Of a DNA stretch of 61,357 nucleotides, positions 27,578 to 58,315 are shown piece after piece (positions within the stretch are counted from its first letter, which is position 1; every line of letters begins with the position of its first letter). The stretch covers positions 1 through 61,357 of the forward strand of contig JAFROJ010000057.1 of the NCBI GenBank assembly GCA_017429765.1. The letters are read 5' to 3'. The notes below the pieces were generated by a model, which did not search any database, was not told where the DNA came from, and saw nothing but the letters and a program-made list of their open reading frames with translations. The DNA is from Bacteroidales bacterium (GTDB lineage Bacteria > Bacteroidota > Bacteroidia > Bacteroidales > UBA932). A program made the translations under genes and the position numbers.

Positions 27578-28816
27578 ATGAAACTTTTTGATGTCTATAG
27601 TTTGTTTGACGTGACGCCGGTGAAGGCTCTCGGGACCAGGGTCTGGGACGACAAGGGGACCGAGTACCTCGACCTTTACGGCGGTCACGCCGTGATCTCT
27701 GTCGGCCATTGCCATCCTGAATATGTGAGGGCCGTCACGGATCAGCTCGGCAAGATCGGATTCTACTCCAACAGTGTCCACAATCCCCTCCAGGAGGAGC
27801 TGGCGGAGAAGATAGGGGAGTTGTCCGGTCTTCAGGATTATTCCCTGTTCCTTTGCAACTCGGGCGCCGAGGCCAACGAGAACGCGTTGAAACTCGCGTC
27901 CTTCCACACCGGGAAGAAGCGTGTCATCGCTTTCCGGGGAGCCTTCCATGGACGCACCTCCGGGGCTGTCGCCGTCACTGACAACCCCAGGATCCGGGCC
28001 CCGTTCAACACCGGTCATGAGGTCACTTTCGTCGGGATGAACGACATCCTGACGGTCAAGGAGGAACTCTCCAAAGGTGATGTCGCGGGGGTGATAATCG
28101 AGGGGATCCAGGGAGTCGGTGGGATAATCATTCCCGACGACGGTTTCATGAGGGATCTCAGTGCCGCCACGAAAGAGGCTGGAGTGCCACTCATACTCGA
28201 CGAGGTGCAAAGCGGTTTCGGCCGCTCCGGCAAATTCTTCGCCCACCAGTGGGCGGGTATAAAGCCGGACCTAATCACCATGGCTAAAGGCATGGCCGGC
28301 GGTTTCCCGATCGGCGGAGTGCTGATCTCCCCGGAGTTCGAGCCCGTCAAGGGAATGCTCGGGACCACTTTCGGCGGCAATCATCTCGCCATGGCAGCCG
28401 CTATCGCCGTGGCTGACATAATCAAGGAGGAGAACCTTGTCTCCAACGCCCTGGAGGTCGGTGAATATCTGAAAGCCCGCCTCCTCGCCTTGACCGATGG
28501 CGCTCCGGATGGCGAGACAACTGCCACCCTCGGCACGTTAAGAGGGGGGACCGCGAGCGAAGCGAGCGGTGGGGCCGAGCGTAGTGAGGCGGTCGAGCCG
28601 CCGGAGACGCCATCGGTCAAAGAAATCCGTGGTCGGGGTCTCATGCTTGGCGTCGAGTTCAACGGCCCCGTGGCGGAGATAAGGAAGAGACTCCTGTTCG
28701 AGAAACATGTTTTCACGGGTGTGTCCGGCAAGAACATGATCCGCCTGCTCGCCCCGCTCGTCCTCAGCAAGGACGATGTCGACATATTCATTAAAGCCTT
28801 GGAGGAAGTTTTATGA
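27578..28816 (+). CDS. argD: N-acylornithine aminotransferase with a 39-residue in-frame insertion
   Basis: This 412-residue PLP-dependent class-III aminotransferase makes N-acylornithine. The PLP lysine is K237 in ITMAKGMAGG; the NSGAEANENALKLA and ILDEVQSGFGRSGKF blocks are present. Residues 306-344 (Gly/Glu/Ala/Thr-rich) interrupt the conserved ..LLAL / PSVKEIRGRGLM.. junction. They are encoded by a palindromic element whose core recurs at 58212-58269. Without them the protein is 373 residues, the usual family length. The insert keeps the frame and lies outside the recognised catalytic motifs, so activity is probably kept. The stop overlaps argF' by 4 bases. Confidence 0.95.
   Translation: MKLFDVYSLFDVTPVKALGTRVWDDKGTEYLDLYGGHAVISVGHCHPEYVRAVTDQLGKIGFYSNSVHNPLQEELAEKIGELSGLQDYSLFLCNSGAEANENALKLASFHTGKKRVIAFRGAFHGRTSGAVAVTDNPRIRAPFNTGHEVTFVGMNDILTVKEELSKGDVAGVIIEGIQGVGGIIIPDDGFMRDLSAATKEAGVPLILDEVQSGFGRSGKFFAHQWAGIKPDLITMAKGMAGGFPIGGVLISPEFEPVKGMLGTTFGGNHLAMAAAIAVADIIKEENLVSNALEVGEYLKARLLALTDGAPDGETTATLGTLRGGTASEASGGAERSEAVEPPETPSVKEIRGRGLMLGVEFNGPVAEIRKRLLFEKHVFTGVSGKNMIRLLAPLVLSKDDVDIFIKALEEVL
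28490..28620 (+). repeat. Palindromic element copy A, inside argD
   Basis: A 13-bp perfect inverted repeat (TTGACCGATGGCG, 28490-28502, with 28608-28620), extended imperfectly inward to about 24 bp, encloses a 58-bp core (28520-28577). That core is 53/58 identical to one at 58212-58269, and its first 34 bases are identical. The core can form a hairpin between CCACCCTC and GAGGGGGG and a second one closed by ACCGC / GCGGT. The right arm encodes native-looking ArgD residues (PSVK), so the left arm looks like an inverted copy of the target. The net insertion of 117 bp is a multiple of three. Confidence 0.85.
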
Positions 28817-58142: not shown

Positions 58143-58186
58143 GACGTAAGCATCCAAGAACTACCGCCGCCAGCCTTGGCGCTCTG

Positions 58187-58303
58187 CTGTAAGAGGTTAG
58201 CCTCCAGAACCACTGCCACCCTCGGCACGTTAAGAGGGGGGACCGTGAGCAAGTCGAACGGTGGGGCCGCGAAGCGGCGGTTCTGGAGGCTAACCTCTTA
58301 CAG
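58187..58303 (+). repeat. Palindromic element copy B, intergenic
   Basis: A perfect 25-bp inverted repeat (58187-58211 with 58279-58303, beginning CTGTAAGAGG) encloses a 58-bp core at 58212-58269. That core matches argD copy A at 53 of 58 positions. Its internal hairpin is closed by ACCGT / ACGGT, while copy A has ACCGC / GCGGT: a compensatory pair change. A third hairpin, GCCGC-GAA-GCGGC, follows. The arms share no sequence with the copy A arms. No T run follows, so it is not a simple terminator. Confidence 0.88.
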
Positions 58304-58315
58304 CTAGAAGGAACG

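Follow-up and report, generated by a model that had tools for sequence, protein, structure and literature searches.

The RPE elements of Rickettsia are palindromes of approximately 150 bp that lie in frame within unrelated metabolic genes and encode a conserved peptide (PMC10969869), and they have been noted to lose the identity of their repeats over time (PMC6649704). The GTAG/CGTC REPs, at 20-40 bp, are situated mostly downstream of genes, with in-gene examples in several species (PMC3733652); the classes of RAYT in the Bacteroidetes have been treated separately (PMC6006769). With nematomorph mitochondria, inverted repeats within coding genes were observed to keep their arms matched, for which template switching or conversion was proposed (PMC6649704), and intragenic inversions are cited in further work (PMC11868660).

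The element described here was recognized within argD of a Bacteroidales bacterium (lineage UBA932; assembly GCA_017429765.1). Like the RPE, it is a repeated palindrome found in frame in protein-coding genes, and the analogy drawn by the initial annotation holds as to in-frame insertion; it is set apart from the RPE, as these are described, by a pseudoknotted multi-helix fold, by arms unique to each site, and by the occurrence of both orientations at orthologous sites. With the REPs it shares palindromic repeats that are placed mostly downstream of genes and also inside them, but it measures 120-200 bp rather than 20-40 bp and has another architecture; an informal look at alignment A3 (below), where the outer arms vary, found no GTAG/CGTC tag that stands out at the foot of the stem. 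The coding palindromes of nematomorphs are likewise in-gene inverted repeats with matched arms, whereas the present element forms a dispersed family with a conserved core in opposite orientations, and no common core is mentioned for the nematomorph palindromes (PMC6649704). Like MITEs, it is small, multi-copy, bounded by terminal inverted repeats and devoid of transposase coding capacity; unlike them, the copies tested lack common outer repeats, and no parent transposon was found. A literature search conducted mostly without subscription papers returned no such family described in Bacteroidales, which is not proof of absence. Judged from sequence comparison, the argD insert probably belongs to a family of mobile palindromes, non-autonomous, approximately 120-200 bp long and near genus-restricted, each of which is translated through and has inverted in place at several sites over evolutionary time.

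The window, by which is meant the whole stretch of 61,357 nucleotides that was analysed (contig JAFROJ010000057.1), contains two copies. Their features, with stems labelled S and hairpins P, are as follows; A3 and A4 denote two alignments of copies introduced with the fold.

27578-28816, + strand: argD, acetylornithine aminotransferase, 412 amino acids including the insert (ORF, Pfam, NCBIfam)
28490-28620, + strand: palindromic element in argD, in frame, sense (inverted repeats, BLASTN, stem pairing, folding)
28490-28518, + strand: basal stem, 5' arm; 26 base pairs with the 3' arm, perfect over the outermost 13 nt
28592-28620, + strand: 3' arm of the basal stem, pairing with the 5' arm (compared with the orthologue in genome G017)
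28520-28538, + strand: proposed pseudoknot stem S1 (28520-28525 with 28532-28538), loop ACCCTC inside (covariation, A3 and A4)
28527-28546, + strand: proposed pseudoknot stem S2 (28527-28531, CCCTC, with 28542-28546, GAGGG) (invariant rows, paired cells)
28550-28570, + strand: hairpin P3 (ACCG..CGGT), inner stem variable (own-genome copies, A3, A4)
28574-28590, + strand: hairpin P4 (GCC..GGC) (own-genome copies, A3, A4)
58183-58308, + strand: second copy, intergenic; its basal stem has 29 pairs and is specific to this site (BLASTN, pairing, arm search)

The open frame of argD spans 412 codons (27578-28816). Its product matches Aminotran_3 of Pfam (5.6e-94) in two stretches, the better of which stops at residue 307, and its top NCBIfam model is TIGR00707 argD, with a score under the cut-off of that model. 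The in-frame palindromic insert that had been noted from the letters of the DNA was borne out: its termini are perfect 13-bp inverted repeats (28490-28502 and 28608-28620), and a stretch of 135 nt around it folds at -76.9 kcal/mol (z -5.73), none of 200 shuffles being equally stable. Sequence alignment to the solved Thermus enzyme 1VEF places the insert exactly between residues 324 and 325. The reported recurrence of the core at an intergenic site was confirmed as a BLASTN match at 58209-58269 (90% over 61 bp, E 1.4e-17); this second copy lies between the 3' ends of two convergent ORFs, and the syntenic place in genomes G017 and G067 is without the core.

Within argD, the element was found in the own genome (G000), in G017, and at loci L100 and L101; L100 also holds a second copy of the element outside argD. 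Alignment of ArgD with its relatives demonstrated that most element-free proteins are 33-39 residues shorter at the insert point. The initial annotation was thus right that ArgD carries extra length, but its figure of 39 residues, which presumes a protein of 373 residues without the insert, agrees with the more distant relatives (L107, L108, L111 and L112; 373 amino acids, 1119 nt) and not with the nearest element-free ones, which have 377 (L104) or 379 residues (L105 and L106) and leave 33-35 as the excess. Element-free orthologues (L105-L108, L111, L112 and others) mostly lack the loop. At the same place, L102 (L102:2001-3239) carries a divergent subtype of the element, L103 (L103:2001-3200; 400 amino acids) an unrelated loop sequence of about 21 extra residues without the core, and L104 an unrelated short repeat encoding RSAQND, while the loop of L106 has a small core-less hairpin (11 pairs, one mismatch) similar to the outer arms seen in G017 and L102. 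Because the loops of relatives differ in this manner (element, subtype, unrelated sequence or short), we regard the site as a hot spot; the additional residues do not represent an ancestral loop of the family.

A BLASTN search of the own genome (2.36 Mb, 75 contigs) with the element gave 44 matches, which reduce to 40 places on removal of two self-arm matches and two fragments next to other copies; one of these (C56:39509, E 0.27) is at chance level, leaving 39 convincing places and hence many further copies of the core. DNA searches found matches in 11 of 11 genomes, own included, that had been picked as close (two, G049 and G062, being apparently one genome), and in 14 of 61 genomes, again with the own genome included, all of them within its genus. 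A covariance model, R1, matched 71 of 121 genomes of the genus under stricter filters and 2 of 149 drawn from the order, namely the own genome and a weak match in the same family; helix S2 was set one column off in R1 (13-17/28-32, not 14-18/29-33), and these searches were somewhat less sensitive as a result. The relatives are for the most part rumen and other gut Bacteroidales assemblies, and the genus may be one resembling Cryptobacteroides. No match to the element was found in the phage and plasmid records searched. Nine of the 40 own-genome places are less than 150 bp from the end of a contig, where approximately 1% would be expected, and two contig pairs, C21/C51 (purH) and C60/C8 (dsbD), appear to end inside the element, through repeat breakage or possibly mixed orientation. 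At site L023, all four relatives examined are empty, with flanks 87-91% identical; from such empty alleles and the copy number, we infer that the element is mobile.

The element consists of a long basal stem enclosing an H-type pseudoknot and two hairpins, in total about 120-200 bp. A basal stem of 20-47 pairs is present in 30 of 31 own-genome copies measured; that set omits copies truncated at contig ends and those that the search pattern did not catch. Inside it follow the motifs ACTGCC, ACCCTC, GGCACGT, TAA and GAGGG, then a hairpin ACCG..CGGT with a variable inner stem, and finally a hairpin GCC..GGC. Pairing of ACTGCC with GGCA(C)GT, and of the intervening loop ACCCTC with GAGGG, would form the pseudoknot; it is proposed from sequence variants because the folding program predicts no pseudoknots. 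The two outer pairs of S1 co-vary, with A-T, C-G, T-A and G-C at columns 7/25 and C-G and A-T at 8/24. Alignment A3 comprises the 29 of 45 in-gene copies that share one length (from six genomes, a selection that favours the well-formed type). Pairing is found in 90.0% of A3 cells against 83.6% after shuffling, and the covariation score is 0.173 against 0.063, a value reached by none of 500 shuffles. The corresponding values for A4, 30 distinct divergent copies from 20 genomes, are 94.7% against 83.5% and 0.248 against 0.088, again reached by none of 500 shuffles; A4 was aligned to R1 and leans towards the helices of R1, from which S1 is absent. Kinship among copies can beat such shuffles, but slid controls, which retain kinship, scored at most 0.051. 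Stem S2, invariant in 29 of 29 A3 rows and paired in 97.3% of A4 cells, is near invariant, its support being one of consistency and not of covariation. RNAalifold found no covarying pair in a mixed alignment of 28 own-genome copies (A1), in which neither the unique arms nor the length variants line up. A known RNA family was rejected as the identity of the element on finding no Rfam match above the gathering score: the window yielded two tRNAs only, and the element stretch nothing except a chance-level match to a frameshift element, outside the element (E 3.6).

Both flanks are in view for 15 in-frame insertions in 14 genes of the own genome, and three more run with an open frame to a contig end; of all 18, ten are sense and eight antisense. 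The hosts are as follows.

Sense, both flanks, own genome: argD, miaA, an LL-diaminopimelate aminotransferase-like gene, purD
Sense, both flanks, own genome: RlmB-like methyltransferase, dihydrolipoamide acyltransferase (pdhC), periplasmic binding protein, aldehyde dehydrogenase
Antisense, both flanks, own genome: GH3 glucosidase (twice), GH9/deacetylase-like, ispE, ksgA, RsmF-like, ispH
To contig end with open frame, own genome: purH, dsbD (sense); QueH-like (antisense)

These names derive from Pfam and NCBIfam where run, several with scores short of the curated threshold. We take three of the hosts to be GH9, aldehyde dehydrogenase and QueH, the QueH-like protein having no NCBIfam match. Several of the host family profiles break or start at the element and others span it as an insertion, and in pdhC and the GH3 gene it sits between domains. 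Four of the six frames of the consensus element are open. Among 51 in-gene copies from several species, recognized by their open frame such that a gene-breaking copy would count as intergenic or could be missed, 46 of the 47 of the main type use a single phase pair, either sense 0 or antisense 2, from which only ispE of G017 departs, and four of four of the divergent subtype use sense 1 or antisense 1; a chance pattern match at L011 was left out of the count. The frames in use encode TATLGTLRGGTGAERSEASGG and ASLRSAPPLASLRSAPVPPLNVPRVA, the sense-strand peptide being Gly/Ser/Glu-rich and the antisense-strand peptide Pro/Ala/Ser-rich, while the unused open frames are strongly basic and contain Cys and Trp. 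This bias suggests selection for benign linkers and for read-through.

It also bears on whether the element might be removed before or during translation, by splicing or ribosomal bypassing, to give a protein without the insert. A strong hairpin with a pseudoknot would suit such removal, and bypassed palindromes in yeast mitochondria are mentioned elsewhere (PMC6649704); phase and openness, however, would be needless if the element were removed, and with the Rfam result given above they render this proposal highly improbable.

Other inserts were observed in loops of the same kinds. The divergent subtype (GTAGCCACCCTCGGCTCGTAAGAG..., sense peptide SPDRSHPRLVRGRGP) is in frame in the other phase at L102:2001-3239, L243, L244 and L041. 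Further short repeat-like peptides are RSAQND (argD of L104), SERSDAGSLRGTPLNPPRG and RPYSAAAE (L009, L239 and L269; L256 and L347), and element-bearing proteins also contain LRQAHEPDRSLSLSKH and LRQAQGP (the C-terminal part of KsgA at L014; PdhC at L016). These genomes seem to host several families of coding palindromes.

Approximately half of the places of the element lie inside genes. At the 13 intergenic copies with usable neighbours (two further loci were unusable), what lies to the left and to the right seems to be separate genes. In an ORF list drawn up mechanically, the core lies no more than 153 bp downstream of a gene 3' end in 12 of 13, with six between convergent genes and none between divergent ones. 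Over 49 pairs of copies at ten orthologous sites, the 31-nt core is 97.0% identical (1450/1495) and the flanks 79.0% (10040/12713), a conservation in place that reflects either selection on the core or homogenised copies. Both observations would be expected of a structured RNA or terminator-like element that is useful to its host and selected for mRNA ends, with in-gene copies as tolerated strays. Presence at sites nevertheless varies between close relatives, the same core occurs in both orientations relative to the host gene, and, as stated, approximately half of the places are in genes; a function of this kind is considered distinctly unlikely.

The outer arms appear to be unique to each site and yet largely to stay complementary. 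Fifteen outer arms compared with the own genome gave nothing off-site better than E 0.1 (40 of 48 candidates scored), and copying of arms from elsewhere in that genome was rejected for want of a source. Inner arm parts are common within subtypes; the copies at C4, C52:55913 and C61:58297 have an identical inner hairpin and different outer arms. Between argD of the own genome and that of G017, 20 of 26 arm pairs are unchanged and six compensated, with none one-sided or broken. Over 13 comparisons, several of which share a species and from which the mismatched L100/L101 row (four unchanged pairs) was left out, 290 pairs are unchanged, 42 compensated, 17 one-sided and 27 broken. The RPE, by comparison, are described as losing repeat identity, whereas these arms have largely remained complementary between species; that 44 of the 86 changed pairs are one-sided (17) or broken (27) counts against the preferred reading. 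As to their source, at L023 the arms came with the insertion, because the four empty relatives are without them. A pre-existing target hairpin, to which the small hairpin of L106 had pointed, was ruled out as a general rule by these same hairpin-less relatives, and arms made as an inverted copy of the flank fit parts of argD, purD and ispH by eye but not L023. Junctions viewed by eye at a few sites lack a consistent direct target duplication. One intergenic site in G063, G067 and G017 (L293, L294 and L296) holds a longer palindrome that has matched arms of its own, which by eye differ by species yet stay complementary.

Between the species examined, both orientations were found at nine of 14 orthologous in-gene sites, and G017 and G067, two close species, are opposite at six of nine. 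For pdhC, the sense orientation is seen in four genomes (G000, G063, G066 and G067) and the antisense in two (G061 and G017). Outside the 14-site test, the RlmB-like site also has opposite orientations and site P5 (L350/L358) a single one. At site P1, in the aldehyde dehydrogenase gene, the flanks are colinear at 85-88% identity while the 120-bp element aligns inverted at 97.5%. These opposite orientations, together with the pseudoknotted fold, the site-unique co-varying arms and the in-frame use of both strands, had not been seen by the initial annotation.

Opposite orientations could arise by inversion in place or, with a selfish palindrome of the RPE or REP kind that does not flip, by independent insertions into the same permissive loops. 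The mean distance between flipped orthologues is 12.86, compared with 11.04 for unflipped orthologues and 16.14 for non-orthologues; only 11 of 5000 label permutations were as close with all sites, and when the six flips between G017 and G067 are taken the count is 20 of 5000, which argues against independent insertions. The T..A form of hairpin P4 likewise occurs in all six pdhC copies, in both orientations, and in only three of 36 other copies with P4 in view, and at pdhC and rsmF arm asymmetries move, by eye, with the ends of the element. With pdhC left out, however, the closeness of flipped orthologues stands out less from chance (312 of 5000 permutations), and some flips may thus be independent insertions. 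Permissive loops can also be hot, that of argD holding the element, its subtype (L102) and an unrelated repeat (L104), and re-insertion into the same loop is possible at some sites given the differing outer arms of G000, G017 and G067 at P1. Independent insertion as the full account is judged somewhat unlikely. Inversion in place has support, above all at pdhC and in the comparison of G017 with G067, given the permutation figure without pdhC, but is not proven for every site.

The pattern also invites comparison with intragenic invertons, in which an in-gene segment between inverted repeats occurs in both orientations at one locus, as it does here between species; intragenic inversions are described elsewhere, reportedly by Chanin et al. 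in 2024 (cited in PMC11868660). By description, the present element differs: its copies are dispersed and have one core in common, the arms are peculiar to each site, and the frame stays open in either orientation. Were it a phase-variable coding inverton, a recombinase would flip the cassette within populations and switch loop peptides on a functional time scale. Inverted arms, two open strands, an own-genome orientation near balance (10 sense, 8 antisense) and the flips at six of nine sites between two close species would agree with such switching, but the outer arms do not resemble one another, the genes concerned encode housekeeping enzymes, and slow inversion without a dedicated enzyme predicts the same pattern. 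Phase variation is, on this evidence, quite improbable.

Y1/HUH transposase-like genes are present in nine of nine genomes (29 matches). None of the 17 loci examined is immediately flanked by the core, a further departure from the REPs, and no mobilising enzyme was found among them. RAYT is not supported as the mover; a REP/RAYT origin of the element, likewise not supported, may still apply. The core is 2.2 kb and 1 kb away at L333 and L339, respectively, and a short element-like motif lies 96 and 136 bp beyond the gene at L328 and L340. Y1/HUH-like genes at L323-L336 and L338-L340 are often flanked by their own distinct palindromes (e.g., GTGCATGGTAGA..TACCATGCAC), a separate repeat system.

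A mobile, inverting and translated element, the reading preferred here, would persist within genes only if the protein can accommodate a flexible loop at that point and if neither strand is closed to reading by the length and phase of the insert. Inversion would leave the gene functional, both strands encoding linkers in the phases used, and would proceed via the inverted arms, probably by recombination or template switching; the same process may also keep the two arms of a site matched. Because the core is preserved whichever way it lies with respect to the host gene, the fold most likely works as single-stranded DNA when the element moves, or in a transcript of its own, and not in the host mRNA. 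A bolder and unlikely version posits genus-wide ambidextrous coding invertons, in which a pseudoknotted cassette recognised as single-stranded DNA inserts with new matching arms and flips fast enough to give mixed populations; if this were true, dozens of housekeeping enzymes would show one or the other of two linker peptides.

The in-frame mobile palindromes known so far come mainly from Rickettsia and some REP-rich species, and the present family is a large case in gut-type Bacteroidales. It offers a fold backed by covariation, many natural alleles that are empty, filled or oppositely oriented, and a phase readable on both strands. The family opens to test how a mobile element can do no harm whichever way it points, by what means the arms of palindromes remain matched, and whether flipping of in-frame elements takes place in living populations; the element is also a source of new protein loops.
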